Source: Streptomyces sp. V1I1
Lineage (GTDB): Bacteria; Actinomycetota; Actinomycetes; Streptomycetales; Streptomycetaceae
Reading direction: 5' to 3'
DNA length: 64,000 bases
NCBI RefSeq assembly: GCF_030817355.1
Contig: NZ_JAUSZH010000001.1
Span: 3,218,501 to 3,282,500 of the forward strand
The notes beneath the pieces are model-generated. The model was not told the origin of the DNA. It saw only the letters and a list, made by a program, of their open reading frames with translations, and made no database searches. The position numbers and the translations under genes were made by a program. The first letter of the stretch is position 1; every line of letters begins with the position of its first letter. Shown piece after piece: positions 1,314 to 38,549 of this stretch.

Positions 1314-1577
1314 GTCGGGTCTCTTTCTCGCGGTGTGGTGCGGCTTGCGGTGCCGCTTACTGTGCGGCTTTGTGTGGTCGTACGAACGAATCGCGCCCCT
1401 CAATAGGGGAACTCTACGAAGGGGCCGACCGTCAGCAACGATACCGGCACACAGAACCGCCCCCACGGGACGGGGGCGTGCCCGGGAGGTAGCGTCTGGG
1501 GACAGGTCCCGTCCCCTGACGGGCACTACGACACAAGACCCCATGTGCGCTGGGTCTGAGGGGAAGACGTTCACCAC

Positions 1578-2372
1578 ATGCCGGACCGACGCCGCCGTAC
1601 GGACCTCCTGTTGCCGCGGGAGCGCCAGTCCACGGACGACAACAACCCCTTCGCGCCGCCACCGGAGGGCAGGCCTGACCAGCCCTGGCAGCCGCGCCGC
1701 CCAGCGAACGACGGCGACAACTCCGACGACTCCTCTTCGTCCGACTCGTCCGGCTCCTCCGGGTCGGGCTCTTCCGGATCCTCGGGCTCCTCGAGCGGTG
1801 GTGGCTCCGGCTGGGGCAGCCAGTGGAGCAGCCGCCAGCCGGGCCGCTCCTCGGGCGGTGGCTTCGGCGGCCGCCCCGGCGGCGAGAACGGCCAGAACGG
1901 CGGCGGCCGGCAGGGCCCGGACGGCGGCTCCCCCGGCGGCCTCCGCTGGGACCCGACGGACCCGGCCCAGCGCAGGGCGCGCTATGCGCTGCTGTCGGGC
2001 ATGTGGGCGTTCTTCTTCGCGCTGTTCGAACTCCCGGAGATCGCGCTGCTGCTGGGCGCGCTGGCGCTGTACTGGAGCATCAGCTCCCTGCGCGCCAAGC
2101 CCCAACGCCCCGCAACGGACGCGGTGACCTCACCCCCGCCCGTACGCCCGACGCCGCCGACATCCCCGAACAAGCCCCAGCTGACGGCGGCCTTGAGCGG
2201 CCTGGTGATGGCGAGCATCGCGCTGGTGATCGTGGCGGCGTCGTTCACTGCGCAGCTCGTCTACCGGGACTACTACACATGCGTGAACGACGCCCTGACG
2301 AAGTCGGGCCAACTCGCCTGCAACGACCTGCTCCCGGATCCGCTGCGGGGCTTGATCGGCGTCAAGGAGTAG
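1578..2372 (+). CDS. Two-TM membrane protein with Ser/Gly-rich N-terminal half
   Basis: A 264-aa protein of unknown function. Residues 1-120 are low complexity: an acidic Asp/Ser run, then Gly/Ser/Arg/Gln-rich sequence, presumably disordered and cytoplasmic. Residues about 135-175 hold a hydrophobic hairpin-like segment ([20 protein letters not shown] onward). A second membrane helix is at about 205-230, followed by a short tail with two cysteines. The gene diverges from purN and its last 11 bases overlap the 3' end of the converging DUF6350 gene. Proteins of this type sit beside purN in other Streptomyces, but I cannot name a function. Confidence 0.8.
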
Positions 2373-3990
2373 CCCGCACGGGCGGTTCACCGGGGGGTGG
2401 GGGTTCGGCCCCCTCCCCCGGCGGTTCCTTCGCGGCCGACGGCTCCTTCGCTGGCGGCGCCTCAGGCAGCGCCGGATCCGGCTCCGGCGTCGCCACCGGC
2501 TGAAGCTCCGCCGTCAAACCCCCCGACGCCTCCTTGAGCGCCGCCACCCGATCCTCCCGGCCCTCCCTCTCGGCCCAGGAACCCGACGGCAGGAAGTCGT
2601 ACGCCTCCGACGCCCCGTCGTCCGGCTCCGGCGGCCCGGCGGGTGCGGGCACCACAGGCACCGGTGCCGCAGCCTCCGGGGCCGACTCCGGCACCGGCTC
2701 CACCGCCCCGCGCCTCCACCAACGCCCCGGCACCCGCACCCGCCACGCCCGCACCCCCAGCGCTCCCGGCACCCCGATACCCGCCGTCCATGCCAGCGCC
2801 GCCGGCCCCGTCAGCCACCACACCGGGCCGAACGCGGCCAGCCGGCCCGTGCCCATCGGGCCGCCCGCGGCCCCCGCCATCAGGGCCGCCAGGACCCCGC
2901 AGCCCACGGCACCCAGGAGCGCCGTCAGCGCGGTCTCGCGCACGCCCCACGCGGTCTCCCGTGCCCCGTGCCGCGGCGCCGCCGCCCGCACCGTGAACCA
3001 CGCGATCACCACCCCCGCCACCACCGGCACAGCCGCCGCAGCCCAGTGCATCGGCATCCCCCGCCCCTCACCCGGGACCGCGGCCAGCAACGGGAAGTGC
3101 GGCAGCGCCGGGTCCCCGGCCAGCGCGAGCGGGGTCGCCGTGGCGCCCGTACCGAGCGCGAAACCCGGCCCGAGCCCGTACGCCGCACCCCACACCGCCG
3201 CGTTCGGCACCAGCGCGAACCCCAGCAGCAGCACCGCGAGCCGCCCCGACCACGGCTCCGCCAGGCGCAGGAACGAATCCTGCGTCGCGTCGGAGTGCCA
3301 CACCAGCGACACCGCGACCAGCAGCGCCCCGCCGCCCAGCAGCGCCATCGCCCCCGCCGCGGCGGACCGCAGTGCGACGGCCACCCCGGTACGGGCGAGC
3401 GCCACCCGTACCCGCCCGGGCAGCCAGGCGGGCAGCAGCTCGCGCGGGCTGCCGCTCCCCGTCCACACCCCGGCCGCCGCCGCGAGCGCCGTCACCAGCG
3501 GCACATGGAACAGCGCGCTCACCGGGTCCGGCGCCAGCGGCCCGCCCGTCGTGTAGACCGCCGCAGCGATGCCGACCAGGAGATATCCCGCGGTCACTGC
3601 GCACAGCGCACCCGGAGCCGACGGCCGCAGCCGCCCCTCCCCCAGTTCCAGCGCGTCGCGCGCCGCCCGGTGCACCAGCCAGGCCGGAAGCGCGACGAAC
3701 AGCAGCGGCACGACCCCCACCGGCGCCGGGGCCCCGGAGAGCGTGCCGGCGCGTACGAGCTCGGTGCCGTGGGCCAGCAGCCACAGCCCGGCGACGAGGT
3801 GCAGCGCCCCATCGGGACCGCTGTCCGGGTACGGAGAGCTGATCCACAGCACCATCACCACAAGCGCGAGCCCGCCCAGCCCGAGCCCCGCCGCGGTCGC
3901 CCCGCGCACGAAGGACGCGGCCAGGGCAGGCACAGGCCCCCCCTGCACGGGGACCGGAGTCTGCGGCACAGAAGGGCTGCGATCGGTCAT
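2362..3990 (-). CDS. DUF6350 family polytopic membrane protein (PerM-like annotation)
   Basis: An integral membrane protein of about 542 aa, with roughly ten hydrophobic segments spread over residues 20-430 and a cytoplasmic Pro/Glu/Ala-rich C-terminal tail of about 100 residues. It matches the DUF6350 family that lies next to purN in Streptomyces and is sometimes annotated as cell division protein PerM; the function is not established. I chose the ATG at 3990 ([10 protein letters not shown]). A GTG at 3999 three codons upstream is also possible. It converges on the preceding gene with an 11-base overlap. The family call rests on location and membrane pattern rather than on a catalytic motif. 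Confidence 0.85.
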
Positions 3991-4115
3991 TTGAGTCACG
4001 CGGCCATGCTGCCAACGACACGCGCCGTAGTCGCGTAACAGGCGATCACCCGCTGTGTCGTTCAATATACGTTTATGTACTTTCTCGTCGAGTGGAGTGC
4101 TGACGGGAGCCCTTC

Positions 4116-5273
4116 ATGACTCAGAGCACCACACGCTCCGTACCCGCCCCGCTGCCCTCCCCCATGGAACGGCGCAGGCTGCGCGAGGCGAAGTTCCTGA
4201 GCGAGGAGGAGGCCGCGAGCGTGGTCGGCGTCACGCGGGCGACGATCAGGTCCTGGGAGACCGGCCGCAGCAGCCCACGGGGGCGCAACCGCGAGCTGTA
4301 CGCGAGGCTGCTCGCCGACTCTGCCGAGAGGACCAGGGAGTCCAGGGAGTTCTGGGAATCCAGGGAATCCGGCGAATTCCCCGCCTGGCAGCCCGAACCC
4401 GAACCCGCCGCCAAGCACGCGGCCGAACAGCAGGCCCCGCCGCCGAAGCCACCGGAACCGCCGGCACTCCCCGAGTTCACCCCCGCCGAGGCCTTCGACG
4501 CTCTCTACTCGTACGCCGCCCCGGCCCTCGTACGCCAGACCTACCTGCTCACCGGTCGGCTCCGGCTCTCCCACGAGTCGGTCGAGCGCGCCTTCCATCT
4601 CGCCTGGCAGCGGTGGCCAAAGGTCGCCGTCGACCCGGACCCCGCGGGCTGGGTACGGGCCGCCGCGTACGAATACGCCATGTCCCCCTGGCAGCGGCTA
4701 CGGCCCGTCCACCGGCACCCCGACTTCCCTCGCGTCGAGGGGGACCGGCGCCGGCTGCTCGACGCGCTGCTGGAACTTCCCCCGTCGTACCGCCGCACCC
4801 TGGTGCTCTACGACGGCCTCGGCCTCGATCTCCCCGAGACGGCCGCCGAGACGGAGGCGAGTACCCCCGCCGCGGCAAACCGCCTGGTGCACGCGCGGGC
4901 AGCCGTCGCCGAGCGGGCGCCCGAGCTCGGCGTGCCCGAGACGCTGCACGAGCAGCTCACGGCCCTCGCGAACGCCGGCCCGGTGCCGCGGCTGAGCGCC
5001 GCCAGAGCGGTACGTACGGGCTGCGAGCGCCGGGCCCGGTTCTGGACGCGAGCCGCCATCACGGTCACCACACTGATCATCGGCGCCACGGCCTACACCC
5101 TGGCCACCGCGCCGACGCGGTACGAACCGCCGCTCGCCCCCGGGCAGCAAGTCGGCGGCGTACCGCCGCACAGCGGGCCGCAGCCGCTGACCCCGCGGGT
5201 CATGGAGCTGCGCGCGAAGCTGCTCGCCGAGCCGGCGTACGGTCCGGAACGACTCCTGCCCCAGGTGCGCTGA
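4116..5273 (+). CDS. HTH and sigma-like regulator with a C-terminal membrane anchor
   Basis: A 385-aa protein with an unusual domain order. Residues about 24-60 form an XRE/excisionase-like helix-turn-helix (LSEEEAASVVGVTRATIRSWETG). Residues 65-125 are an acidic, Pro-rich linker. Residues about 128-260 resemble ECF sigma region 2 and a degenerate region 4 (AFDALYSYAAPALVRQTYLL; LLELPPSYRRTLVLYDGLGL). A single hydrophobic helix at about 310-330 (AITVTTLIIGATAYTLA) is followed by a short tail that would be extracytoplasmic. It may be a membrane-tethered DNA-binding protein; sigma activity is not proven by sequence. A strong terminator follows at 5295-5344. Confidence 0.85.
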   Translation: MTQSTTRSVPAPLPSPMERRRLREAKFLSEEEAASVVGVTRATIRSWETGRSSPRGRNRELYARLLADSAERTRESREFWESRESGEFPAWQPEPEPAAKHAAEQQAPPPKPPEPPALPEFTPAEAFDALYSYAAPALVRQTYLLTGRLRLSHESVERAFHLAWQRWPKVAVDPDPAGWVRAAAYEYAMSPWQRLRPVHRHPDFPRVEGDRRRLLDALLELPPSYRRTLVLYDGLGLDLPETAAETEASTPAAANRLVHARAAVAERAPELGVPETLHEQLTALANAGPVPRLSAARAVRTGCERRARFWTRAAITVTTLIIGATAYTLATAPTRYEPPLAPGQQVGGVPPHSGPQPLTPRVMELRAKLLAEPAYGPERLLPQVR

Positions 5274-5294
5274 CCAGGTCAGTTGCTTAGTACG

Positions 5295-5344
5295 CGAGTG
5301 GGCCCGCACCTCACAGGAATCGCCTGGAGGCGCGGGCCCACTCG
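5295..5344. terminator. Bidirectional rho-independent terminator
   Basis: A perfect 13-bp stem (5295-5307 with 5332-5344, CGAGTGGGCCCGC) and a 24-base loop lie between the converging HTH gene and sucD. It can terminate transcription from both sides. Confidence 0.85.
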
Positions 5345-5368
5345 TACGTGCCGTACCTACCGCAAAGG

Positions 5369-6253
5369 TCAGGCGCCCAGGATCTCGCGCGCCAGCTTGG
5401 CCGTCTCGGTCGGCGTCTTGCCGACCTTGACGCCCGCGGCCTCGAGGGCTTCCTTCTTGGCCGCGGCCGTGCCGGAGGAGCCGGAGACGATGGCGCCGGC
5501 GTGGCCCATGGTCTTGCCCTCGGGGGCGGTGAAGCCCGCGACGTAACCGACGACCGGCTTGGTGACGTTCTTCGCGATGAAGTCCGCCGCACGCTCCTCG
5601 GCGTCGCCGCCGATCTCGCCGATCATCACGATCAGCTCGGTCTCCGGGTCGGCCTCGAATGCGGCCAGCGCGTCGATGTGGGTCGTGCCGATGACCGGGT
5701 CGCCACCGATGCCGACGGCCGAGGAGAAGCCGATGTCACGGAGCTCGTACATCATCTGGTAGGTCAGCGTGCCGGACTTGGACACGAGACCGATGCGGCC
5801 GGGCTTGGTGATGTCGCCCGGGATGATGCCGGCGTTGGACTGGCCGGGGGTGATCAGGCCGGGGCAGTTCGGACCGATGATCCGGGTCTTGTTGCCCTTG
5901 GCGGTCGCGTACGCCCAGAAGGCGGCGGAGTCGTGGACCGCGATGCCCTCGGTGATGACGACCGCGAGGCCGATCTCGGCGTCGATCGCCTCGACGACGG
6001 CGGCCTTGGCGAAGGCCGGCGGCACAAAGAGGACGGAGACGTCGGCTCCGGTCTTCTCCATCGCCTCGGCGACGGAGCCGAAGACCGGCACCTCGGTGCC
6101 GTCGAAGTCGACGGTCGTGCCCGCCTTGCGCGGGTTCACGCCACCGACGATGTTGGTGCCGTCGTTCAGCATGAGCTTGGTGTGCTTCATGCCCGTGGCG
6201 CCGGTCATGCCCTGGACGATGACCTTGCTGTCCTTGGTGAGGAAGATAGCCAT
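5369..6253 (-). CDS. sucD: SucD, succinyl-CoA synthetase alpha subunit
   Basis: The 294-aa alpha subunit of the ADP/GDP-forming succinyl-CoA ligase of the TCA cycle. The N-terminal CoA-binding Rossmann domain begins [15 protein letters not shown]. The C-terminal domain carries the phosphohistidine loop [10 protein letters not shown], where His251 is the residue transiently phosphorylated in catalysis. Length is standard. It lies 21 bases downstream of sucC and is almost certainly co-transcribed with it. A shared bidirectional terminator follows the gene. Confidence 0.98.
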
Positions 6254-6274
6254 GGTTCTGGAGTCCCTCTTCCC

Positions 6275-7453
6275 TTACTTCGCAGCCGCGAGCTCGGCGG
6301 CCTTGTCGGCCGCGCCGTCCATGGTGTCCACGCGCTGCACGAGCGGGTGGTTGGCGTCGGAAAGGATCTTGCGACCCAGCTCCGCGTTGTTGCCGTCGAG
6401 GCGCACGACCAGCGGCTTGGTGACGTCCTCGCCCTTGGACTTGAGCAGCGCCAGGGCCTGCACGATGCCGTTGGCGACCTCGTCGCACGCGGTGATGCCA
6501 CCGAAGACGTTGACGAAGACGGACTTGACGTCCGGGTCGCCGAGGATGATTTCGAGGCCGTTCGCCATGACCTCGGCGGAGGCGCCGCCGCCGATGTCGA
6601 GGAAGTTGGCGGGCTTCACGCCGCCGTGGTTCTCACCGGCGTACGCGACGACGTCGAGGGTCGACATGACCAGACCCGCGCCGTTGCCGATGATGCCGAC
6701 TTCGCCGTCGAGCTTGACGTAGTTGAGGTTCTTGGCCTTGGCGGCAGCCTCGAGCGGGTTGGCTGCGTCCTTGTCCTCGAGCCCCGCGTGCTCGGGCTGA
6801 CGGAAGTCCGCGTTCTCGTCGAGCGAGACCTTGCCGTCGAGCGCGATGACACGGCCGTCGGCGACCTTGGCCAGCGGGTTGACCTCGACGAGGAGCGCGT
6901 CCTCGGCGATGAAGGTCTTCCACAGGGTCACCAGGATGTCGGCGACCTGGTCGGCGACATCGGCCGGGAACTTCGCGGCCGCGACGATCTCGCGGGCCTT
7001 CTCCAGGTCGACACCCTCGTTGGCGTTGACCGGGATCTTCGCGAGGGCCTCGGGGTTCTCCTCCGCGACGACCTCGATCTCCACGCCGCCCTGGACGGAG
7101 GCCATGGCAAGGAAAGTGCGGTTGGTGCGGTCGAGGAGGTACGAGACGTAGTACTCCTCGGCGATCTCAGGCGCCGTCTCGGCCAGCATCACCTTGTGGA
7201 CCGTGTGGCCCTTGATGTCCATGCCGAGGATCTGACCGGCCTTCTCGACCGCGTCGTCCGGGTCGGAGGCCAGCTTGACGCCGCCGGCCTTGCCGCGGCC
7301 GCCGACCTTCACCTGCGCCTTGACGACCGACCGGCCGCCCAGACGCTCGGTCACCTCGCGCGCCGCCTCAGGCGTGTCGATGACTTCACCGGCCAGCACC
7401 GGTACACCGTGCTTGGCGAAGAGGTCCCTCGCCTGGTACTCGAACAGGTCCAC
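6275..7453 (-). CDS. sucC: SucC, succinyl-CoA synthetase beta subunit
   Basis: The 392-aa ATP-grasp beta subunit, partner of SucD. It begins [16 protein letters not shown], typical of the family, and ends with the CoA-ligase domain ([18 protein letters not shown]). The open frame extends 32 codons further upstream, but the GTG at 7453 is preceded by a purine-rich ribosome-binding site (AAAAGGGACGG) at good spacing and fits homologues. First gene of the sucCD operon. Confidence 0.98.
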
Positions 7454-7679
7454 GCGCGTCCGTCCCTTTTCTGATGATCGCGGTTCGTTGTCTGCGTGGG
7501 CGTGCCGCGAAGGGCAACGTGACTGCGCTGTCACAAGGGAGGCGTACACGGTGTCCGTGGCCGCGGCATGTCCGTCTCGCAGGTTATCCCCGTGGGCCGT
7601 AGGTCCCTAAATCGCAGATCACACCTGGGCGGTGATAACAGTCACAGATCGCACCCGGTGGCTGTGCCGGAAACGGAAC
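7454..7679. other. sucCD upstream region
   Basis: Non-coding sequence upstream of sucCD, which should hold its promoter. I see two short related motifs (CGCAGATCACACC and CACAGATCGCACC, near 7613-7656), which could be a protein-binding site, but nothing firmer. Confidence 0.4.
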
Positions 7680-7711
7680 CGGGCGGTCCCCACCCCAATG
7701 AGGACCGCCCG
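7680..7711 (-). terminator. Terminator of the hendecad-repeat protein gene
   Basis: A perfect 10-bp stem (7680-7689 with 7702-7711, CGGGCGGTCC) with a 12-base loop, about 80 bases past the stop codon of the gene at 7792-8901. Confidence 0.75.
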
Positions 7712-7747
7712 TGGAGCTCCGTAGAACCGCGTAACTTCCGACCCGCC

Positions 7748-7808
7748 TGTCAGATGTTCTGCGTCATTCGTTCTGCGTCATTCGTTCTGTGTCAGATGCC
7801 CTGCGTCA
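7748..7808. repeat. 14-bp tandem repeat spanning a stop codon
   Basis: Three 14-base units starting at 7757, 7771 and 7785: two exact copies of TTCTGCGTCATTCG and a diverged third. The third unit contains the TGA stop of the adjacent minus-strand gene (7794-7792), and the stop context ATCTGACA recurs about 35 bases downstream. Confidence 0.8.
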
Positions 7809-8901
7809 GGTGCGACGCGTAACCCGGAGTGACAGAGGAAGCCGCGCCCTGAACGCCGGAAACGGCGTTGCCGGCGAGCGGGGCCGCGGTGACCGTGCCG
7901 GTCAGGTCCTGCGCGAACGGCTGGACCTCGGAGACCACGCCGCCCGCGAACGGCGTCACGTCGCCGACGACACCGTGCGCGAGGGAGCCGGCGCTGCCGC
8001 CGACGCCGTACGCGACCGGCGTCACGTGGTCGACCACGGTGTGGACGAGCGGCTGAACCGAGCCGACGACACCGCCCGCGAAGGGCTGGACGTCGGAGAC
8101 CACGCCGCCGGCGAACGGCTGGACCTCGCTGACGACACCGCCGGCGAACGGCGTCACGTCGCCGGCCACGCCCTGGGCGAGGCCGCCGACGTCGCCGACC
8201 GCCTGACCGGCGACCGGGACGACGCCGTTGACGGCCCGGCCGGCGATGGGCGGCAGAACGTCCTGAGCGGCGGCGTCGACGACCGGAGTGGCGTCGGCGA
8301 CAGCGCCCTGGGCCCGGTACTGGGCCTGGGCCGGGGCCTGCTCCAGCTCGTGCGCGAAGGCGGAGAGCGGGCCGAAGAGGTAGTCGATCTCGTCCTGGAC
8401 GTCCGTGCGGGCAGCGGACTGGGCGTTGCCCTGGGCCTGGGCGGCGGTGCCAGCGGCGGTGCGCTGAGCCTGCGCGGCCGTACCCGTCGTCTTGCCCTTG
8501 GCCTGGGCGGCCGTGCCCGTAGCGGTGCGCTGAGCCTTCGCGGCCGTACCCGTCGTCTTGCCCTTGGCCTGGGCGGCCGTGCCCGTAGCGGTGCGCTGAG
8601 CCTGCGCAGCCGTACCGGTGGCCTTGCCCTTGGCCTGGGTGACCGCACCCGTAGCGGTGCGCTGAGCCTGCGCGGCCGTACCCGTCGCCTTGCCCTTGGC
8701 CTGGGCGACCGCACCCGTGGCCGTGGAGCGCGCGTCGGAAGCGGCACCCTTGGCGTCCTGGACGGCGTCGGCCGCCTGGTCGGGCGTGGAGAGCGGTACG
8801 GAGACGTGCACCTCGTCGGCGCTGGCCACGGCGGTGCCGATGGCCCACATGCCGCCGGCCGTGGCGGCGACGGCTATAGAACGGCGAATATTCTTGTGCA
8901 T
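7792..8901 (-). CDS. Secreted hendecad (11-residue) repeat protein, LEA-like
   Basis: A 369-aa exported protein; the signal peptide ends near VASA/DEV (residues 28-29). Nearly all of the mature part is 11-residue repeats. Residues 62-160 are nine back-to-back hydrophilic units alternating TGTAAQAKGKT and TGTAAQAQRTA types. Residues 227-336 are ten more units of hydrophobic type such as VTPFAGGVVSE and VQPFAGGVVSD. A short non-repeat segment (TDVQDEIDYLFGPLSAFAHELEQ) separates them. The first block has the periodicity and composition of LEA group 3 amphipathic helices, suggesting a surface or lipid-interacting role; that is inference. It has no catalytic motif. The next secreted-protein gene lies 107 bases upstream on the same strand. 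Confidence 0.85.
   Translation of the reverse strand: MHKNIRRSIAVAATAGGMWAIGTAVASADEVHVSVPLSTPDQAADAVQDAKGAASDARSTATGAVAQAKGKATGTAAQAQRTATGAVTQAKGKATGTAAQAQRTATGTAAQAKGKTTGTAAKAQRTATGTAAQAKGKTTGTAAQAQRTAAGTAAQAQGNAQSAARTDVQDEIDYLFGPLSAFAHELEQAPAQAQYRAQGAVADATPVVDAAAQDVLPPIAGRAVNGVVPVAGQAVGDVGGLAQGVAGDVTPFAGGVVSEVQPFAGGVVSDVQPFAGGVVGSVQPLVHTVVDHVTPVAYGVGGSAGSLAHGVVGDVTPFAGGVVSEVQPFAQDLTGTVTAAPLAGNAVSGVQGAASSVTPGYASHLTQGI
7894..8223 (-). repeat. Ten 33-bp tandem coding repeats
   Basis: Exactly 330 bp, or ten 33-bp units, encoding the hydrophobic 11-mers at residues 227-336. The units at residues 249-281 and 315-325 are the most conserved. Confidence 0.85.
8422..8718 (-). repeat. Nine 33-bp tandem coding repeats
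   Basis: Exactly 297 bp, or nine 33-bp units, encoding the hydrophilic 11-mers at residues 62-160 of the host gene. Alternate units are the most similar, so the higher-order unit is 66 bp. Confidence 0.9.
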
Positions 8902-9008
8902 GCTTGAGTCGAATCCTTCGAATGAGTTCGGCTGTCCGGAACTGTCCGGTTGGCGGGCAGACCTGTCCCGCCCCCGCGCGGCAGGTCTTGAGCGGGGAAA
9001 GGACTGCC

Positions 9009-9857
9009 CTAGCCGGGGAATTCGAGGATGTCGCGGGGTCGTTCGCAGGTCGGCGCGGCCGCCGTCGCCCGGACCGCGCCGGAGACGAGCGCGTATGGAC
9101 TGTCGTACGCACTCACCGCCGCGGGCTGGTCGCCCTTTCGCGGCGTGTGCGTCTCGGTGGACTGCTGCAGCGCGCCGTGCGTGGAGTTGCAGGGCTTGCC
9201 GGGGACTTGAGCCGGTGCGGGTGCCGACGCGGGCTGCGCGTGCGGGACTTCACCGGGGTGCCGGCCGAGCGCACCGGCGTACTCACCGTCGTACTCACCG
9301 GCCGGGCCGACCGCGGCAACGGTCGCGCCGGACGACCGGGCCGGGTCCGCCTCGTCCGAGGAGGGCTTGGCCGTGATTCCGCCCGGGGACTCGTCCACGA
9401 GCCGGTCGGCGGGGCCTTGCGGCTGTCCGGGGTCTGTACCGCCGCCGGCAGACGGCGGCGGTACGGGAAGGAACTCGCCCGGTGTGCCGGTCACCGGCTC
9501 GACCACGGGCCCTACGACATCCGCCACAGTGCCCGCGGCCGGCTGAAGAACCTCGCGTACGGATCGCACCGGCGCAATGGACGCCGCCGCGTCGACGGAG
9601 TCCGTTGCCGCGCGCCGCAGTTCCCGCGCCGGGACCGGCCGGGTCGACGACGCCGGGTCGCTCGCCTCGGTGTCGGCGGGCGCCTGGGAACTCGGCGCCG
9701 AATCCGGCAGCTCGGCCGCCTGCGCCTGTCCGCCGTAGAGGAAACCGACCGTCAGCAGACCCCCGAGAAACAGCATCACCCGCAGCGCACGCCGCTCGCC
9801 CGCTGCCCGGCGCAGCGCGCACAGGACAGCGGCAGAACGAGCAGCTGCGGCAGTCAC
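9009..9857 (-). CDS. Secreted hypothetical protein, Pro/Ala-rich
   Basis: A 282-aa protein I do not recognise. A basic N-terminus and a hydrophobic helix at about 27-46 end in AQAQA/AEL, a plausible signal peptidase site or membrane anchor. The rest is low complexity (Pro, Ala, Ser, Gly) with a central amphipathic stretch at about 95-125 that resembles the 11-mers of the neighbouring secreted protein (VADVVGPVVEPVTG). Two cysteines lie in the C-terminal third. It is upstream of and co-directional with the hendecad-repeat gene, so the pair may form an envelope-related transcription unit. No enzymatic motif is visible. Confidence 0.7.
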   Translation of the reverse strand: MTAAAARSAAVLCALRRAAGERRALRVMLFLGGLLTVGFLYGGQAQAAELPDSAPSSQAPADTEASDPASSTRPVPARELRRAATDSVDAAASIAPVRSVREVLQPAAGTVADVVGPVVEPVTGTPGEFLPVPPPSAGGGTDPGQPQGPADRLVDESPGGITAKPSSDEADPARSSGATVAAVGPAGEYDGEYAGALGRHPGEVPHAQPASAPAPAQVPGKPCNSTHGALQQSTETHTPRKGDQPAAVSAYDSPYALVSGAVRATAAAPTCERPRDILEFPG

Positions 9858-9951
9858 GGTGAAGGAGCCTTCCCGAGGTTGGCGGAAGTGGACCTTCCGC
9901 GGGGATCGGGACGATGCTCGCCGAGTCGCCCGGGTCGGCGCAAGTCCTACG

Positions 9952-11133
9952 TTACTGATGGGTCACCTTGTCCGGTATGGGCAGTGGACGCTTCTCGATC
10001 GCCGCCGCCATAACATCCGGGAAGAGGTCCGGCGTACATGCGAAGGCCGGTGCGCCCAGCGCCGCGAGAGCCGCGGCGTGCTCCCGGTCGTACGCGGGTG
10101 TCCCCTCGTCCGAGAGCGCGAGCAGCGCCACGAACTGCACGCCCGACGCCTTCATCGCCGCGACCCGCTTCAGCATCTCGTCCCGTATGCCACCCTCGTA
10201 GAGGTCGCTGATCAGTACGACGACGGTGTCGGCGGGGCGGGTGATTTGCGACTGGCAGTACGCGAGCGCCCTGTTGATGTCGGTGCCGCCGCCGAGCTGC
10301 GTGCCGAACAGGACGTCGACCGGATCGTCGAGCTGGTCGGTGAGGTCGACGACCGCGGTGTCGAAGACGACGAGGCGGGTGGCGATGGAGCGCATCGACG
10401 CCAGGACCGCGCCAAAGACGGATGCGTAGACGACGGAGGCCGCCATCGAGCCCGACTGGTCGATGCAGAGGACGACGTCCTTCTTCACTGACTGCGACGC
10501 CCTGCCGTATCCGATCAGCCGCTCAGGGACGACGGTGTAGGCACCTTCTCTTTCAGGAATCGGCAGACAGTTCTTGAGGTTGGCCCGGATGGTGCGGTCC
10601 CAGTCGATGTCCCGGTGGCGCGGCCGGTTGATCTTCGCCGAGCGGTCGAGCGCACCGGTGAGGGTGGACCGGGTGCGGGTGGCGAGCCGCTTCTCGAGGT
10701 CGTCCACCACTTTCCGTACAACGGCTCTGGCTGTCTCCTTGGTCGTCTCGGGCATCGCCTTGTTGAGGGAGAGCAGCGTGCCGACGAGGTGGACGTCCGC
10801 CTCGACGGCCTCCAGCATCTCCGGCTCCAGCAGGAGCGTGGACAGGCCGAGCCGGTCGATCGCGTCGCGCTGCATGACCTGGACGACGGAGCTGGGGAAG
10901 TACGTACGGATGTCGCCGAGCCAGCGCGCGACCGACGGCGCGGACGCCCCGAGCCCGGCCGAACGGTCGCGTCCGCCCTGGTGGTTGCCGCTGCCCTTGC
11001 CGTAAAGGGCGGTGAGGGCGCCGTCCATCGCCGCGTCCTTGCCCGCGAGCGCGCACCCGGTGCCGTCGGCGGACTCCCCGCCGAGCACCAGCCTCCAGCG
11101 CCGCAGCCGCTCGTCGTACTCGGTCCCTGTCAT
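9952..11133 (-). CDS. VWA-domain protein of the AAA-DUF5682-VWA module
   Basis: A 393-aa cytoplasmic protein with a C-terminal von Willebrand A domain. The MIDAS metal site is complete: DQSGS at 225-229, the Thr of GGGTD near 284 and the Asp of ISDLYEG near 310. The N-terminal half (about 1-215) is helical and specific to this group of VWA proteins. Its start overlaps the stop of the DUF5682 gene in an ATGA (11133-11130), so translation is coupled. Pairing with a MoxR-type AAA ATPase suggests a chaperone-like or remodelling complex, as known for MoxR/VWA pairs; the target is unknown. Confidence 0.9.
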   Translation of the reverse strand: MTGTEYDERLRRWRLVLGGESADGTGCALAGKDAAMDGALTALYGKGSGNHQGGRDRSAGLGASAPSVARWLGDIRTYFPSSVVQVMQRDAIDRLGLSTLLLEPEMLEAVEADVHLVGTLLSLNKAMPETTKETARAVVRKVVDDLEKRLATRTRSTLTGALDRSAKINRPRHRDIDWDRTIRANLKNCLPIPEREGAYTVVPERLIGYGRASQSVKKDVVLCIDQSGSMAASVVYASVFGAVLASMRSIATRLVVFDTAVVDLTDQLDDPVDVLFGTQLGGGTDINRALAYCQSQITRPADTVVVLISDLYEGGIRDEMLKRVAAMKASGVQFVALLALSDEGTPAYDREHAAALAALGAPAFACTPDLFPDVMAAAIEKRPLPIPDKVTHQ

Positions 11134-13643
11134 CGGGCCACCCCCGCAAGGTCGTTGTCGTCGATTCCGAGGAGCAGCTGGAGCACCGGCAGCACCGCGT
11201 CCGCCCGCGGCTCGTCGAGACCGAGGCCGAATCCGGGCATCGTGGGCGCGGCGTGCACCGGACCGGATGCCGCCGCGGGTCCGCGCCGGACCAGCTCGCC
11301 CAGGGTGCGGCGGACACCCGATTCGTACGCGGAGAAGGTGCGGCGCAGCAGCGGCAGTACGTCGGTGAAGGCGTCCGCGGGCACGCTGGTCAGCCAGGCG
11401 TCGACGAGTGTGAGCAGGCGCTCGTCGTGGACCAGGAGCATCCCGCCCCCGGACGCACCGCCGACGAAACCCTCGATCCAGGCGGCCGCTTCGGCGGGCG
11501 GCGTGCCCGGTGAGAGCGCGAGGGCCATGAGCCGCGCGGCCTCGTTCTCCGCGAGCCGCCCGTCGTCCAGCAGCAGCCGGGCGGCCCGGCCGCGTATGAC
11601 CCCCGGCACGGTGTCCCGGGCCGCGAGCCGGTGCAGTACGGAGCCCCAACGCTCGCCCAGCTCCCGCGCCTTGGGCAGCAGCCCGATCGCTGTGTGCACC
11701 CCGTCCAGATGGCTCCGCATCTCGGCCGCGCCGTCCGCGTCGAGCCCGGTGCACGCGGGCGGCAGGCCGACGCAGATGCGCTCGGCGAGCCCGGCCGCGA
11801 CCTCGCCGAGCGCGGCCGTGTCGGTGGACCGCACATCCCCGTACCGCAGGGAGCGGGCCAGGGCGGGCAGCGCCTGGGCGAGATGACCGACGTCGGTGTC
11901 GAGGGCGGCGCGGTCCGCGAGCGCCTTCATCACGACGGGGAGCGCGTCGGGCAGTTCGGCCAGCAGGCACTGCTCGGCGAGCGCGGTGACGTCGGCGAGG
12001 GCGGTCGCCGACACGGCTCTGTTCTCGGCGTTCGCCGTGGCCGCGGAGAGCACCGTCGTACCCCATACGCCGGCCTCCGCGACCCGGACGAACAGCTCGG
12101 GCTCCCAGCGCAGCCGCCAGCTCTCCCGGAACGTGCCCGTGCTCCCCCGCCCCGTGACGGGCTCGCCCCAGCCGATGGCCAGCAGCCGCAGCCGGTGCAG
12201 CAGCCTGCTCTTCGCCGCGTCGGTCTCTTTGCGCAGATCGAGGTCCAACTCCCGCTCCAGCGCCTCCGGTTTGAGCCGCAGGCTGCGCTGGAGCCGGCTG
12301 AGGTCGCGCTGCAACGGCACGGCGGGCGCGGCGTCCGGCACCTCGCCGAGCACGTCCCCGACGATCAGCCGGTCCCGGATGAGGTCGAGCGGCACGTCGG
12401 AGCCGTCGCACATCACGGCCCGGATGGCATCGGTCGTCTCGGTCAGCCCGGCGAGCGGACGCCCGCGCATGGCGGCGAGCGTGTCGGCGAGCCGGACGGC
12501 CTCGATGACATGGGCGGACGAGACCATCCGGTCCTCGTCCCGCAGCAGCCCGGCGACCTTGGTCATCCAGCGCTCGACGGGCCGGTCGGGCGCGCCGAAG
12601 AGATGCCCGTACCAGCCGGGCGAGTCGATCCCCGCGCCGTACCCGCTGTGCCGGGCGAGCCTGCGGTGCGTCCAAGGCACCCAGGTCATCTCGGTCTTGA
12701 CCTTGGGCAGGCCTTTGAGGAGGGCCTTGTCGGCGGCGACGGTGTACTTCGCTGCCAGCGCGGGAACGTGCCAGGCGCCGCAGACGACGGCGACGTCGTC
12801 CCCGAACTCCTTGCGCGCGGCGCGCAGTTGGATCCGCATATGTGCCTCGCGCGCGAGATCGCGTTCGTGCCCGCCGTGTCCGTACATCTCGCGCAACGCG
12901 GCCATGGCTTCACCGAGCGCCATGAAGGGGGCGCAGGGGTCAGCACCGTGGGAGCGGAGTGCGGGCGCGCCCTCAGGGCGGGGCCCGTCCGCAGACCCGG
13001 ACACAGACCCGGACCCGGCCCCGGACACAGACGCGGACACAGACGCGTGCCGGGACGGGACCTCGGCCGCGGACCCGCGGTGCTCGATGACGTCCTCCCA
13101 CCAGCGCTCCGGGTCGTCGTACCCGGCGGTTTCGGCGAGGACGGCGATGGGATCGATCCGTACGCCCCGAGCTTCGAGAGGCTCCTGCCCCGGCACGATG
13201 TCCCATTCGGGGTCGACGGCCTCCGCGTCGGCAACCTCAGGTGCCCGGCCTGCAAGAGGCTCCTCTCCGTCCGGCGCCGGTCCCTCCGGTCCGGCCGCGT
13301 CCGCAGACTCCTCCGCCGCTGCCAGCGCCAGCGAATGCGCTGCCGGGAGGTCGATGAAGCGCACCGGCACCCCCCGGGCGAGCGCCCAGCGAAGCGCCAC
13401 CCACTCCGGCGAGAACTCGGCCAGCGGCCAGAACGCCGCCCGTCCCGGGTCGTCCACGGCATGCGCGAGCAGCGCGACCGGCGGGCGCATCTGCTCGTCC
13501 GCCGCGAGCGCGAGCAGCGCGTCTCCCTCGGGCGGCCCCTCGATCAGCACCGCCGGTGGCGAGGCCGCCTCCAGCGCGGCCCGCACCGCCCGCGCCGAAC
13601 CCGGCCCGTGGTGACGGACGCCGAGCAGCAGGGGCCCGGTCAT
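11130..13643 (-). CDS. DUF5682 family protein
   Basis: An 837-aa soluble protein, the middle gene of three translationally coupled genes. It begins MTGPLLLGVRHHGPGSARAV, whose GVRHHGPGSA motif is the family hallmark; the invariant His pair near residue 10 could be catalytic or metal-binding, but no reaction is known. A Ser/Gly/Pro-rich acidic linker lies at about residues 190-235. The C-terminal half is helical. It overlaps both neighbours by 4 bases (ATGA), so AAA ATPase, DUF5682 and VWA proteins should be made together and probably act together. Function unknown. Confidence 0.88.
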   Translation of the reverse strand: MTGPLLLGVRHHGPGSARAVRAALEAASPPAVLIEGPPEGDALLALAADEQMRPPVALLAHAVDDPGRAAFWPLAEFSPEWVALRWALARGVPVRFIDLPAAHSLALAAAEESADAAGPEGPAPDGEEPLAGRAPEVADAEAVDPEWDIVPGQEPLEARGVRIDPIAVLAETAGYDDPERWWEDVIEHRGSAAEVPSRHASVSASVSGAGSGSVSGSADGPRPEGAPALRSHGADPCAPFMALGEAMAALREMYGHGGHERDLAREAHMRIQLRAARKEFGDDVAVVCGAWHVPALAAKYTVAADKALLKGLPKVKTEMTWVPWTHRRLARHSGYGAGIDSPGWYGHLFGAPDRPVERWMTKVAGLLRDEDRMVSSAHVIEAVRLADTLAAMRGRPLAGLTETTDAIRAVMCDGSDVPLDLIRDRLIVGDVLGEVPDAAPAVPLQRDLSRLQRSLRLKPEALERELDLDLRKETDAAKSRLLHRLRLLAIGWGEPVTGRGSTGTFRESWRLRWEPELFVRVAEAGVWGTTVLSAATANAENRAVSATALADVTALAEQCLLAELPDALPVVMKALADRAALDTDVGHLAQALPALARSLRYGDVRSTDTAALGEVAAGLAERICVGLPPACTGLDADGAAEMRSHLDGVHTAIGLLPKARELGERWGSVLHRLAARDTVPGVIRGRAARLLLDDGRLAENEAARLMALALSPGTPPAEAAAWIEGFVGGASGGGMLLVHDERLLTLVDAWLTSVPADAFTDVLPLLRRTFSAYESGVRRTLGELVRRGPAAASGPVHAAPTMPGFGLGLDEPRADAVLPVLQLLLGIDDNDLAGVAR

Positions 13644-14764
13644 GCGCTCACCTCGCGGCAGGCGCGGTAGAAGTCCTTCCAGCCCTCGCGCTCACGCACC
13701 ACCGTCTCCAGGTACTCCTGCCAGATGACCCGGTCCGCCGCCGGGTCACGGACGACCGCGCCGAGGATGCCGGCCGCCACATCGCCGGGCCGCAGCACGC
13801 CGTCGCCGAAGTGCGCGGCGAGCGCGAGACCGCCCGTGACGACCGAGATCGCCTCGGCCGTGGAGAGCGTGCCCGAGGGCGACTTGAGCTTGGTGCGGCC
13901 GTCGGCCGAGACGCCGTCCCGCAGCTCTCGGAAGACAGTGACCACCCGGCGGATCTCCTCGAGCCCCTCAGGCACGGCCGGCAGATCGAGCGAGCGCCCT
14001 ATCTGGTCGACGCGCCGAGACACGATGCCGACCTCGTCCTCGGGCGTCGCGGGCAGCGGCAGCACGACGGTGTTGAACCGGCGGCGCAACGCGCTGGACA
14101 GGTCGTTGACCCCGCGGTCGCGGTCATTGGCCGTGGCGATGAGGCTGAACCCACGCACCGCCTGGACCTCCTGCCCCAACTCAGGGATCGGCAGGGTCTT
14201 CTCGGACAGGATCGTGATCAGCGAGTCCTGTACGTCCGCGGGGATACGGGTGAGCTCCTCGACCCGAGCGGTCATGCCCTCGGACATCGCGCGCATGACG
14301 GGACTGGGCACGAGCGCGTCCCGGCTGGGGCCGTGGGCGAGCAGTTGGGCGTAGTTCCAGCCGTAGCGGATCGCCTCCTCGGGCGTGCCCGCCGTGCCCT
14401 GCACGAGCAGCGTGGAGTCGCCGCTGACGGCCGCGGCGAGATGCTCGGAGACCCAGGTCTTGGCGGTGCCCGGCACGCCGAGGAGCAGCAGCGCCCGGTC
14501 GGTGGCGAGTGTGGTGACGGCGACCTCGACGATCCGGCGCGGCCCCACGTACTTGGGCGTGATCGCCGTGCCGTCGGGCAGCGTGCCGCCGAGCAGATAG
14601 GTGGCGACGGCCCACGGCGACAGCTGCCAGCCGACCGGCCGCGGCCGGTCGTCGGCCGCGGCGAGCGCCTTGAGTTCCTCGGCGAATGCGTCCTCGGCAT
14701 GCGGTCGCAGAGCCTCGGCCCCGGTGGCTGCGCCTGCGGTCGCGCCGGTTTCGGACACGGTCAT
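13640..14764 (-). CDS. MoxR-like AAA+ ATPase of the module
   Basis: A 374-aa AAA+ protein and first gene of the minus-strand operon. Visible elements are Walker A GVPGTAKT (96-103), an acidic Walker B region around EELTRIPADVQDSL (169-182), sensor 1 in ATANDRD (about 210-216) and a probable arginine finger in ALRRRF (225-230). The ATG at 14764 is preceded by a strong GGAGG ribosome-binding site. Its stop overlaps the DUF5682 start. It resembles MoxR/RavA-type ATPases that work with VWA partners; here DUF5682 is the extra component. No transmembrane segment. Confidence 0.93.
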   Translation of the reverse strand: MTVSETGATAGAATGAEALRPHAEDAFAEELKALAAADDRPRPVGWQLSPWAVATYLLGGTLPDGTAITPKYVGPRRIVEVAVTTLATDRALLLLGVPGTAKTWVSEHLAAAVSGDSTLLVQGTAGTPEEAIRYGWNYAQLLAHGPSRDALVPSPVMRAMSEGMTARVEELTRIPADVQDSLITILSEKTLPIPELGQEVQAVRGFSLIATANDRDRGVNDLSSALRRRFNTVVLPLPATPEDEVGIVSRRVDQIGRSLDLPAVPEGLEEIRRVVTVFRELRDGVSADGRTKLKSPSGTLSTAEAISVVTGGLALAAHFGDGVLRPGDVAAGILGAVVRDPAADRVIWQEYLETVVREREGWKDFYRACREVSA

Positions 14765-14884
14765 GGATCCCCCTCCAGATCGTTCGACCCGATGTGGGAT
14801 CCACCGTGCACCATGCCACTGACAATCGACCGTCGCCGCAGGTCAGGACCTCAATGGCCAGGATTCGACCGGGAGTTACGGGAG

Positions 14885-15295
14885 TTACTCCACGATCGGG
14901 GAGACCGCGATGCAACCGGCCGCGGCGGCCAGGCCCGCGCCCTTCTCCTCCTTGATGACCTTGCCCTTGTACGTGATCTTGCAGCTGACCTCGGAGCCGG
15001 TGATGTCCGCGGCAACCGGCATGACGGCGGGCGGCATGATGCCGCGCAGCGTGACCGTCTTCTTCCACGGCAGCGAGGGCTTCTGCACCGTCTCGATCTC
15101 CGGCTCCATCGCCTTGCCGCCACCGCCGTGGAAGTCGATCGAGTCGACGTTCTTCCCGGTCACCTCGTACGTGACTTCGTACGTCTCGTTCGTGGCCTTG
15201 TCTACGGCGTCGACGGCGTCGGAGCAGGCGGAGAGGCCGAGCGTGAGGCCGGAAACGGCGACGGCGCAGACGGCGGCGCGGATGGTGCGGTTCAT
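14885..15295 (-). CDS. MmpS-like lipoprotein
   Basis: A 136-aa exported lipoprotein. The lipobox LSAC places the lipidated cysteine at residue 24. The mature part has the layout of MmpS-type transport accessory domains: VTYEVTG, LPWKKTVTL and a Cys-containing VSCKITYKGK segment that may form a disulfide with the Cys near the C-terminus. The ATG at 15295 was preferred because it begins a proper signal peptide; the open frame starts 15 codons earlier. It lies between the two halves of the AAA/SWIM module, but its role there is unknown. No MmpL transporter is nearby. Confidence 0.8.
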   Translation of the reverse strand: MNRTIRAAVCAVAVSGLTLGLSACSDAVDAVDKATNETYEVTYEVTGKNVDSIDFHGGGGKAMEPEIETVQKPSLPWKKTVTLRGIMPPAVMPVAADITGSEVSCKITYKGKVIKEEKGAGLAAAAGCIAVSPIVE

Positions 15296-15427
15296 ATGGA
15301 ATCCCCCCGGATCCTGAGGCTGAGCCCTCCAGCCAATCACAAAGGGAAGGTAGGGCCAAGATGCTGTCGGGCGCGCGAATCCGCAGGTCAGAACCGATTG
15401 TCAGTGGTGGCCCGTAGCGTCTTCAGC

Positions 15428-16828
15428 ATGCTGCGATCTAACGGGGGAGAACCCTCGAACGCCCCGGAGCAGGGGGTGCGCTGGACGTCGGATCAGGTGC
15501 TGGCACTGGCTCCTGACGATGCGTCGCGCAGAGCGGGAAACAGACTAGGCGCGGCCGGGCCGTGGTCCGGCGCGGGCAGCAGCGGCTCGGGGGCCGTGTG
15601 GGGCCTGTGCAAGGGCAGCGGCAGCAAGCCGTACCAGACGGTCGTCGACACCACGGGCCCGGCCTACAAATGCAGTTGCCCGAGCCGGAAGTTCCCGTGC
15701 AAGCACGCGCTGGGGCTGCTGCTGCTCTGGGCTGCGGACGAGGGCGCCGCACCGGTCTCCACCACGCCGGACTGGGCCGAGGAATGGCTTGAAGCGCGCA
15801 GAAAGCGCGCCACGGACAAGGAAGAGAGCGACGCGGGCGCGGGACAGCCCGCGAAGACCGCCGACCCCGAGGCGGCCAGGCGCCGGGCCGAGCGCCGGGC
15901 GGGGCGGATCACCGCGGGGGCCACGGAGCTGGAACAGCGGCTCACGGATCTGCTGCGCGGCGGCCTGGCCGCGGCCGAACAGAGGGGGTACGAACTGTGG
16001 GAGGAGACCGCGGCTCGCATGGTCGACGCTCAGGCACCCGGACTGGCGGGACGGGTGCGGGAGTTGGGCGCGATTCCGGGCTCGGGGCCGGGCTGGCCCG
16101 TGCGGCTGCTGGAGGAATGCGCGCTGATCCATCTGCTGGACGAGGCGTGGCTCGGGCTGGAGAAGCTGCCGGACCCGTTGGCCGCGACGGTCCGCACCCG
16201 GGTCGGCCTCACCTCGCCCGCCGAGGGCCCGCCGGTCCGGGACGGCTGGCTGATCCTGGCCCAGTACGACTCCTCGGACGGGAAGATCACCACGCGCCGT
16301 ATATGGCTGTACGGACGCGGCTCCGGGCGCACGGCACTGCTGCTCTCCTTCGGCGCAGCAGGCCGCTCTCCGCAACAGGCGCTCCCGGTGGGGCTGATGA
16401 TCGACGCCGAGCTCACCGCGTACGCGGGCGCGGGGCAGCTGCGGGTGGACCTGGGCGAGCAGTTCGGCGCGCCCGTCCCGATCGGGTCCCCGCCGCCGGG
16501 CGGGCCGGCCGCGGCGGCCCTCGACGCATACGGCAAGGCTCTGCGGGACGACCCCTGGCTGGACTCCTGGCCGGTCACGCTGAGCGGCGTCATTCCCACC
16601 CAGGCGGGCGAGGGGTGGCAACTGGCCGACGCCGACGGCGAGTCCGCGCTGCCCATCGCGCCCGGCGCGCTCTCCCGCCCCGGGCTGTGGAAGCTCGTGG
16701 CGCTCTCCGGCGGTGGCCCGCTCACCGTCTTCGGCGAGTGCGGTCACCAGGGCTTCACGCCGCTCGCCGCCTGGGCAGCCCGGTCCGAGGACGCCACGGG
16801 TCCGGCCGAGACGATCCCGCTCATCTGA
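15428..16828 (+). CDS. SWIM zinc-finger protein
   Basis: A protein of about 466 aa with an N-terminal SWIM zinc finger, CSCPSRKFPCKH (Cys82, Cys84, Cys91, His93), the CxCx(n)CxH ligand pattern used for nucleic-acid or protein binding. The rest has no catalytic motif I recognise; residues about 130-180 are charged and probably coiled. Start choice is uncertain: the ATG at 15428 lacks a clear ribosome-binding site and a GTG at 15476 is an alternative. The DUF5691 gene follows 16 bases after the stop, so they form an operon diverging from the AAA-DUF5682-VWA genes. Confidence 0.88.
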   Translation: MLRSNGGEPSNAPEQGVRWTSDQVLALAPDDASRRAGNRLGAAGPWSGAGSSGSGAVWGLCKGSGSKPYQTVVDTTGPAYKCSCPSRKFPCKHALGLLLLWAADEGAAPVSTTPDWAEEWLEARRKRATDKEESDAGAGQPAKTADPEAARRRAERRAGRITAGATELEQRLTDLLRGGLAAAEQRGYELWEETAARMVDAQAPGLAGRVRELGAIPGSGPGWPVRLLEECALIHLLDEAWLGLEKLPDPLAATVRTRVGLTSPAEGPPVRDGWLILAQYDSSDGKITTRRIWLYGRGSGRTALLLSFGAAGRSPQQALPVGLMIDAELTAYAGAGQLRVDLGEQFGAPVPIGSPPPGGPAAAALDAYGKALRDDPWLDSWPVTLSGVIPTQAGEGWQLADADGESALPIAPGALSRPGLWKLVALSGGGPLTVFGECGHQGFTPLAAWAARSEDATGPAETIPLI

Positions 16829-16844
16829 ACGTACGGAGGACGTC

Positions 16845-18494
16845 ATGACCAGCACCGTCAGCACCTCACCGTGGGAAGAGCTCGTCACCTCGGCCCTGCT
16901 CGGCACCGACCGCCGTACGCCGCCGGATTCCGTGCTGTCCCCCGGCAAGGACGCGCCGGTCGCGCTGTTGGACGCGGCGGCGGTCCAGACCGTACGGCGC
17001 AGGGCGGGACTGCTGCCCGCGCCCGCCGCCGACCGGCCGGAGCCCGCGCCGCACGACGCCCGCCCGCAGCTGCCCGCGCCCGCCCGGCGCCGGCTCGCCC
17101 AGCTGCTGGCCGACCGGTCCGCCCCGTCGCACGCGGGAGGACGACGAGGTACGGCACCCGATCTCACCGAGCTGCTCCCCCAGTGGCTGGCCGCGGCCAA
17201 CGAGCACCGGTACCAGGCGCCGCCGTCCGTACTGCCGGCTCTGCTGGACGCGGCCCGTGCTCGTACGGATCTGCGGCCGCAGGCCCTCACTTTCGCGGGG
17301 CCGCGCGGGCTGTGGCTGGCCCGGCTCAACCCGGAGTGGAAGTTCGCGCTGCGCGGAGCGTCCGGAAGCTCTGTGCTGCCGGACGCCGGTGACGAAGAGG
17401 CGGTCCAACGGCTCTGGGAGGAAGGGCTGTTCGCCGAGCGGGTCGCGCTGCTGGCGGCGGCGCGGGTGCACGATGCGGGGGCGGCGCTGGCGCTGCTGAC
17501 CGCGACGTGGGCGACGGAGCGGGCCGAGGACCGGCTGATGTTCCTCGACTCCCTGCGTACCGGACTGTCCGACGCGGACGAGCCGTTCCTGGAACAGGCC
17601 CTGTCCGATCGAAGCCGCAACGTCCGTGCCACCGCGGCCGAACTCCTGTCGGCGCTGCCGCACTCCGCACTTGCCGGGCGGATGGCGGCGCGGGCGGCGT
17701 CGTGCGTCAGCCTGGACCGCAGTGGCGACGGCGACGCGGCGATAGGCGTGGAGGCGCCGCACGAATGCGATGCGGGCATGCAGCGCGACGGGGTGGCGCC
17801 GAGCCCGCCGACGGGGCGGGGCGAACGGTCATGGTGGCTGGGCCAGTTGGTGGAGGCGGTCCCGCTGTCCACCTGGCCGGGGCGGCTCGGCGGGCGTACG
17901 GCCCAGGAGATCGTCGCGCTGCCCGTCACCGACGGCTGGGGCGAGGAGCTGCACGCGGCGTGGTGCCGGGCGGCGGTGCGGCAGCGGGACGCGGAGTGGT
18001 CCCGCGCCCTGCTCGGGGCGCCGGGCAACCCGCCGGACACCGGCCCCGGCACGTCGTCCCTCGCCGAACGGGCGAAGCTGCTCGCGACGCTGCCGGACGG
18101 TGAACGGGCGGTGTGGGTCGCGGAGTTCATCGCGGCGCACGGCCTGTCGGAGGCGTTCCAGCTGCTTGGCGTCTGCGCGGTGCCGTGGGGGGAGCCGCTC
18201 GGCCGTTCGGTGGTGGACGCGCTGGACATCGCGCGTGAGGCGGGGAGTTACCCCTGGAGCTTCAGCGGGGTGATGGGCCTGGCGGAACGCTGCCTGGACC
18301 CGGCGGAGGCGAGCCGACTGGAGCTGCTGACGGCGACGCCGGACGAAACGGAGGGGGCGTCGCCGGGGGCGGGGGGGTACTGGTCGGAGGCGTTTCAGCG
18401 GCTGGTGTCGACGTTGCGGTTGCGGGCGGCGATGCGGGTGGAGCTGGGGGGTGTGTGTTCCCCCACCCCGCCCCTTCCCGAAACTGGGGGCTGA
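16845..18494 (+). CDS. DUF5691 family protein
   Basis: A 549-aa soluble protein, probably of repeated helical hairpins (HEAT-like, inferred from the Ala/Leu-rich helices at 150-300). It begins WEELVTSALLGTDRR, the family signature. The ATG at 16845 has a GGAGGA ribosome-binding site. It is paired with the SWIM gene, as DUF5691 usually is, opposite an AAA-DUF5682-VWA operon. The last dozen residues (CSPTPPLPETGG) come from a GC-rich palindromic intergenic element that reads into the gene, so the native C-terminus was probably near MRVELGG. Biochemical function unknown. Confidence 0.87.
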   Translation: MTSTVSTSPWEELVTSALLGTDRRTPPDSVLSPGKDAPVALLDAAAVQTVRRRAGLLPAPAADRPEPAPHDARPQLPAPARRRLAQLLADRSAPSHAGGRRGTAPDLTELLPQWLAAANEHRYQAPPSVLPALLDAARARTDLRPQALTFAGPRGLWLARLNPEWKFALRGASGSSVLPDAGDEEAVQRLWEEGLFAERVALLAAARVHDAGAALALLTATWATERAEDRLMFLDSLRTGLSDADEPFLEQALSDRSRNVRATAAELLSALPHSALAGRMAARAASCVSLDRSGDGDAAIGVEAPHECDAGMQRDGVAPSPPTGRGERSWWLGQLVEAVPLSTWPGRLGGRTAQEIVALPVTDGWGEELHAAWCRAAVRQRDAEWSRALLGAPGNPPDTGPGTSSLAERAKLLATLPDGERAVWVAEFIAAHGLSEAFQLLGVCAVPWGEPLGRSVVDALDIAREAGSYPWSFSGVMGLAERCLDPAEASRLELLTATPDETEGASPGAGGYWSEAFQRLVSTLRLRAAMRVELGGVCSPTPPLPETGG

Positions 18495-38525: not shown

Positions 38526-38549
38526 GCCACTGACAAGCAACTTCCCAGG

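Follow-up and report, generated by a model that had tools for sequence, protein, structure and literature searches.

Machines built from a MoxR-type AAA+ ATPase and a VWA-domain protein are widespread, and few of them have known clients. Among the described examples, NorQ and NorD combine a MoxR ring with a VWA protein bearing a metal ion-dependent adhesion site (MIDAS) (PMC9976466), and this pair drives metal insertion via a twisting mechanism (PMC13036017). In the MoxR-vWA ternary conflict systems a third core protein joins the MoxR and VWA components (Kaur et al. 2020, PMC7159879), and seven MoxR subfamilies have been named, YehL among them (PMC3893208). The window analyzed in this work, a 64,000-nucleotide stretch of the Streptomyces sp. 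V1I1 genome (contig NZ_JAUSZH010000001.1, 3.22-3.28 Mb of 8.3 Mb), holds a five-gene module of this type. Genes for a MoxR-type AAA+ ATPase, a DUF5682 protein and a VWA protein lie on the minus strand with an ATGA overlap at both junctions, and they diverge from plus-strand genes for a SWIM zinc-finger protein and a DUF5691 protein, with an MmpS-like gene in between. This layout, proposed in a sequence-only reading of the window, is upheld on gene calls remade from the sequence, with families assigned by Pfam models with cut-offs (the scan of the SWIM protein began at GTG 15476). The core of the module is Escherichia coli yehL-yehM-yehP-yehQ, the YehL subfamily of MoxR. Because the promoter signal ahead of the SWIM gene also precedes recA and other repair genes, a role in the DNA-damage response is probable for this long-mysterious machine.

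The sequence TTGTCRGTG-N8-TANNNT is what we take to be the actinobacterial RecA-independent (P1/PafBC) DNA-damage promoter. The window carries TTGTCAGTG-N8-TAGCGT 5′ of the SWIM gene (15398-15420), and the same strict motif is found in the SWIM direction, anywhere in the AAA-SWIM stretch, in 73/73 regions. These comprise the window and 72 of the best 80 Streptomyces loci of one genome scan, eight loci without a usable AAA-SWIM stretch having been omitted and the short second-copy loci of the genus (L104-L109) lying outside the motif scan. Exactly one strict motif is present in each of 76 of the 80 loci, or 76 sites in 1.6 Mb. Towards the AAA gene, TTGTCAGTG occurs in 71/73 regions and the strict form with TANNNT in none of the 73. 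Genome-wide, 25 strict sites are present compared with 0 for a reversed control; one is that of the window and another lies approximately 73 bases ahead of the DUF4132 open reading frame (ORF) of a second copy of the module. Judged from these sequence patterns, the SWIM promoter in Streptomyces is very likely a damage-regulon promoter. As the motif ends at 15420, ATG 15428 may be the SWIM start in preference to GTG 15476. A further TTGTCAGTG is present on the minus strand at 38514-38536 of the window, without the TANNNT half.

Twenty of the 23 other motif sites were examined and three of these lack a 120-aa ORF within 400 bases, leaving 17 genes. Eight of them match families of repair proteins or nucleases, namely a DinG/YoaA-type helicase (under NCBIfam cut-offs), RadA, an AlkZ-like protein, UvrB, RecD2-HHH, MgsA, RecA and, as the least specific, an RNase_T exonuclease. 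The remaining nine encode a PhoH-family protein, an AI-2E-type transporter, two ABC transporter parts, an MFS transporter, a mycothiol-dependent isomerase-type protein, a DUF4253 protein, an AAA_16 protein and one protein without a family. The module shares its promoter motif with recA, uvrB and radA in this genome and differs from the known P1/PafBC regulon in that its members in the window are not known repair enzymes. Two genes directly behind the motif are themselves candidate damage-regulon genes, one at 276-3011 of locus L166 (911 aa, without a Pfam family) and one at 90-2999 of locus L164 (AAA_16, 970 aa, cut at the locus end).

That the five-gene set is a real, widespread conserved module is virtually certain. 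With 10 of the 80 Streptomyces loci set aside as shorter than 15 kb, all five genes stand on divergent strands in 70/70 loci of at least 15 kb, the order of SWIM and DUF5691 coming out reversed in one of them (L018). Of 198 actinobacterial genomes, 17 carry DUF5682 and 16 carry a DUF5691 match above its cut-off; all 16 fall among the 17, with the two genes separated by at most 3.4 kb (Fisher p 1.2e-22, genomes taken as independent). Three DUF5691 matches under the cut-off, in genomes without DUF5682 (G049, G153 and G187), were dropped from these counts, and the 17th genome, G124, carries DUF4132 in place of DUF5691. Because of these linkage counts the gene grouping is not due to chance. The sequence-only reading had envisaged a coherent machine around the MoxR/VWA pair and had named independent occurrence of the families as the refuting outcome; the counts favor the module and bear out the conserved linkage.

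The linkage also extends far outside the actinobacteria. Gene order was read in 11 of 30 matching plasmid records, and in Deinococcus, Rhizobium and Methylosinus the set runs SWIM-DUF5691-AAA-DUF5682-VWA in a single direction, with DUF5691 taken from the record annotation. Because the set is collinear in these organisms, the divergent arrangement seen in Streptomyces probably derives from a collinear operon by rearrangement. In Methylosinus pOB3b3 (L134, 11154-12379) the VWA gene is broken across reading frames, with insertion elements further downstream. In Hymenobacter a single 1009-aa fusion protein combines SWIM with DUF5691, the five-gene set was recovered by phmmer in Methylobacterium, Nocardia and Nonomuraea, and a Fusobacterium locus has SWIM, AAA, DUF5682 and VWA, with DUF5691 undetected. 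Hymenobacter (L131, 8362-8973) and Deinococcus (L132, 8756-8992) have an additional small gene that separates AAA from DUF5682. A profile search with diverse sequences gave near relatives only among the matches listed. The MmpS-like gene, found in 9 of 76 loci having both AAA and SWIM (ORFs of at least 100 aa scanned), is ruled out as a module member.

In E. coli K-12 the AAA, DUF5682, VWA_CoxE and SWIM genes sit in a single run as yehL, yehM, yehP and yehQ. The window proteins match YehL, the E. coli DUF5682 protein and YehP with 229, 113 and 224 bits, respectively; the SWIM protein has no phmmer match to YehQ and is tied to it by its SWIM domain and position. The features of the YehL subfamily are present, namely an AAA_5 domain like that of YehL with a VWA partner and yehM/yehQ-type genes adjoining. 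The E. coli locus differs in having DUF4132/WGR genes (yehI, yehF) nearby, SWIM in last place and no annotated DUF5691. YehF, encoded close to yehI, contains a WGR domain, which is a DNA-break-binding domain. No functional account of yehLMPQ was found among the papers listed for these names and no mention of DUF5682 or DUF5691 in the literature searched, subscription journals being mostly outside it, and the term 'DUF5682' is absent from Kaur et al. 2020 (PMC7159879) and from a CRISPR clustering paper. The "undescribed machine" of the sequence-only reading is accordingly undescribed in function within that literature; the system itself is known, as yehLMPQ and the YehL subfamily.

Three types of module can be told apart. 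Type A combines SWIM with DUF5691. Type B, found in E. coli, Iodobacter, G124 and the second copy in the present genome, has DUF4132-type genes in front and SWIM last where found; the loci of Iodobacter, one E. coli plasmid and one Streptomyces plasmid are of this E. coli type. Type C, in the same-genus loci L152 and L154, consists of VWA, AAA and a diverged DUF5682-like protein that reaches approximately 140 bits in an unfiltered search with a profile of 38 sequences. The second copy (L007, G000:C1:436000-455900, at 4981-18077) comprises the damage-type motif, DUF4132, a large protein without a Pfam family, AAA, a DUF5682-VWA fusion and a SWIM match under the cut-off. The fusion is a single 1337-aa ORF and suggests, from gene structure, physical contact of the two proteins. 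The strict motif is also present in L139 and L153 (type B, ahead of DUF4132/YehF-type ORFs) and in both type C loci. Scanned loci from outside Streptomyces, many with short flanks, yielded no such motif, and neither did L131, L132, L133 and L138. No damage-type promoter was recognized in the E. coli yeh region, where a LexA-like box was the only motif tried. This box has 13 matches at up to one mismatch compared with 7.25 expected (4 of 100 shuffles reach 13) and none in the 500 bases upstream of yehL; a copy about 10 bases before yehF is not counted as evidence.

Features of the module in the Streptomyces sp. V1I1 window
Feature	Position	Strand	Evidence
VWA (CoxE/YehP-type) protein, 393 aa, MIDAS DQSGS	9952-11133	minus	Pfam VWA_CoxE 3.9e-60; E. 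coli YehP 224 bits
DUF5682 (YehM family) protein, 837 aa	11130-13643	minus	Pfam DUF5682 3.2e-292
MoxR-type AAA+ ATPase, YehL subfamily, 374 aa	13640-14764	minus	Pfam AAA_5 8e-37; YehL 229 bits
TTGTCAGTG-N8-CACGGT, 5′ of AAA gene	14803-14825	minus	left half of damage-type motif kept; right half non-canonical
MmpS-like lipoprotein	14885-15340	minus	Pfam Mycobact_memb 2.8e-5; passenger
TTGTCAGTGGTGGCCCGTAGCGT, damage-type promoter motif ahead of SWIM-DUF5691	15398-15420	plus	strict motif match
SWIM zinc-finger protein	15428 (ATG; alternative GTG 15476) to 16828	plus	Pfam SWIM 6.6e-6
DUF5691 protein, 549 aa	16845-18494	plus	Pfam DUF5691 2.7e-175

By analogy, NorQD is the best mechanistic model for the motor of the module. 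Solved structures matched by the AAA protein include midasin and NorQ (NorQ 3.4e-7). The Walker A, sensor 1 and arginine finger of the ATPase, as well as the MIDAS of the VWA protein, are present by eye as previously claimed; a correction applies to the Walker B motif, which is Glu-Glu and not the canonical Asp-Glu in all seven aligned YehL-type members including the window. The MIDAS sequence DQSGS is kept in 6/6 aligned proteins, with the MIDAS Thr replaced by Asn in Deinococcus. NorQ/NorD shares the MoxR ring and the MIDAS-bearing VWA protein with the module and differs in comprising two proteins with a single enzyme target, compared with five genes including a TIKI-like subunit.

Fold prediction for DUF5682, one of the checks that the sequence-only reading had put forward, gives a TIKI/TraB/Ere-like domain for residues 1 to about 330 and helical repeats for residues 537-796. 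The N-terminal domain is thus likely, as modeled, to have the TIKI/TraB/erythromycin-esterase fold. The TIKI superfamily is marked by two GX2H motifs. The second of these (G289, H292) is kept in 38/38 diverse DUF5682 sequences and the Gly of the first, Gly8, in 24, with Pro there in 14. Calling the N-terminal GVRHHGPGSA invariant was therefore too strong, as His12 is also kept in only 36/38; His11, Pro14 and Ala17 are present in all 38. The proposal that this N-terminus looks like an active site is upheld: His11, Glu35, Arg265 and His292 are kept in 38/38 and match the EreC catalytic set, the equivalence being by spacing and range (24 residues for H11-E35 and 27 for R265-H292, compared with 28 and 28 in EreC). 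In TraB, H43, E69, R242 and H265 are invariant in six sequences. DUF5682 shares its predicted fold and the His-Glu-Arg-His set with the superfamily (EreC, 2qgm, TraB/GumN) and differs in its extended stretch of helical repeats and its partnership with an ATPase, with marginal sequence similarity. On this modeling, the chances that DUF5682 is catalytic are about even.

Taken together, the data are consistent with a DNA-damage-inducible MoxR-VWA remodeling machine with a TIKI-fold hydrolase, a chain of steps that, taken whole, we hold with evenly divided confidence. DNA damage would turn on SWIM-DUF5691 via the RecA-independent promoter pathway and probably the divergent AAA-DUF5682-VWA operon as well. 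The YehL-type AAA+ ring would drive its VWA partner as NorQ does NorD, and DUF5682 would be a third core subunit, connected with the VWA protein and made up of a hydrolase-like domain borne by a scaffold of helical repeats. Recruitment of the machine to its target would fall to the SWIM zinc finger and to the HEAT-like DUF5691 (a weak HEAT match in Pfam, E 0.011 and 16.3 bits vs a cut-off of 23.5 bits); the E. coli type has DUF4132/WGR-type proteins in place of DUF5691. The target would probably be a damaged or stalled nucleoprotein, exposed by ATP-driven remodeling so that DUF5682 could cleave or process it; the location of the target on DNA is a tentative and rather doubtful part of the scheme. 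Of the three functions guessed at in the sequence-only reading, metal insertion, nucleic-acid surveillance and conflict, surveillance fits best, given the damage-type promoter, the SWIM domain and the WGR domain in the E. coli neighborhood. In a narrower version, which is unlikely, the module would act as an ATP-driven DNA-damage protease and would clear DNA-protein crosslinks or repair complexes that have become stuck. Here the SWIM/DUF5691 (or WGR/DUF4132) proteins would detect nucleoprotein that is damaged or stalled, the MoxR-VWA motor would pull the bound protein open and TIKI-fold DUF5682 would cleave it.

The guess of metal insertion persists, by the NorQD analogy, as a cofactor-insertion chaperone in which MoxR-VWA would remodel a specific metalloenzyme, the other subunits would be adaptors and DUF5682 would bind metal through its two histidines with no cleavage. 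The NorQ match, the function of NorQD in metal insertion and the CoxE type of the VWA protein fit this account, which is nevertheless unlikely: the annotated loci that were read, though not searched systematically, show no recurrent additional enzyme gene, and by its promoter the module falls in with recA, uvrB and radA. Moreover, the best-matched fold for which a mechanism has been proposed is that of EreC, described as metal-independent (PMC7979712); Tiki itself is described as metal-dependent (PMC6254334). General stress proteostasis, with many proteins refolded or degraded after stress and the damage promoter as one input, is in keeping with the chaperone-like nature ascribed to MoxR proteins (PMC3893208) and with the PhoH-family and transporter genes behind the motif. 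It appears quite unlikely given the rarity of the motif, the repair or nuclease families behind nearly half of its genes, and the SWIM domain and the WGR domain of YehF, which presumably point to nucleic acid.

Genomic location bears on the third guess, that of conflict. The yehL-Q region is covered to at least 80% in 5162/5426 complete E. coli genomes, a measure of coverage and not of gene intactness, and 5320/5322 of its places are chromosomal. The 63 full Streptomyces loci are flanked by sucD (63), sucC (63) and a B12-binding gene (62). The module behaves as core genome within E. coli and within Streptomyces, and the family is patchy across the phylum (17/198). Beside sucC in the window, a minus-strand ORF (7792-8901) has tandem Ala/Thr/Gln/Lys-rich repeats. 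Relatives are rare in plasmid records (30/72,556) and phage records (1/50,697), and two pattern-limited viral scans returned none. The phage record is MT835988.1 (L140), an unverified 14-kb scaffold labelled 'phage' with AAA-DUF5682-VWA at one end (166-4876), and may be bacterial DNA. PADLOC matches are limited to two weak ones for AAA (E 0.015 and 0.043), the bpMoxR (beta-propeller type) model scores 23.7 bits, under its 27-bit cut-off, and no VMAP, iSTAND, FtsH or propeller third component is found above the Pfam cut-off, the third protein being DUF5682 over its length. The module shares with the MoxR-vWA ternary conflict systems a plan of MoxR, VWA and a third protein (PMC7159879), and the Iodobacter plasmid copy near type I restriction genes might hint at such a role. 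The identity of the third protein and the chromosomal core location set the module apart, however, and a function of this kind in conflict or against phages is very improbable and poorly supported.

The YehL subfamily has been named without a function in the literature searched, despite the presence of yehL-Q in nearly all E. coli genomes, and the promoter link and predicted active site make this open question specific and testable in laboratory strains. If the proposed role is true, a motor-driven, enzyme-like player joins bacterial genome maintenance; were the module a DNA-damage protease, bacteria would have a new class of nucleoprotein-repair machine, and nearly all E. coli would possess it.

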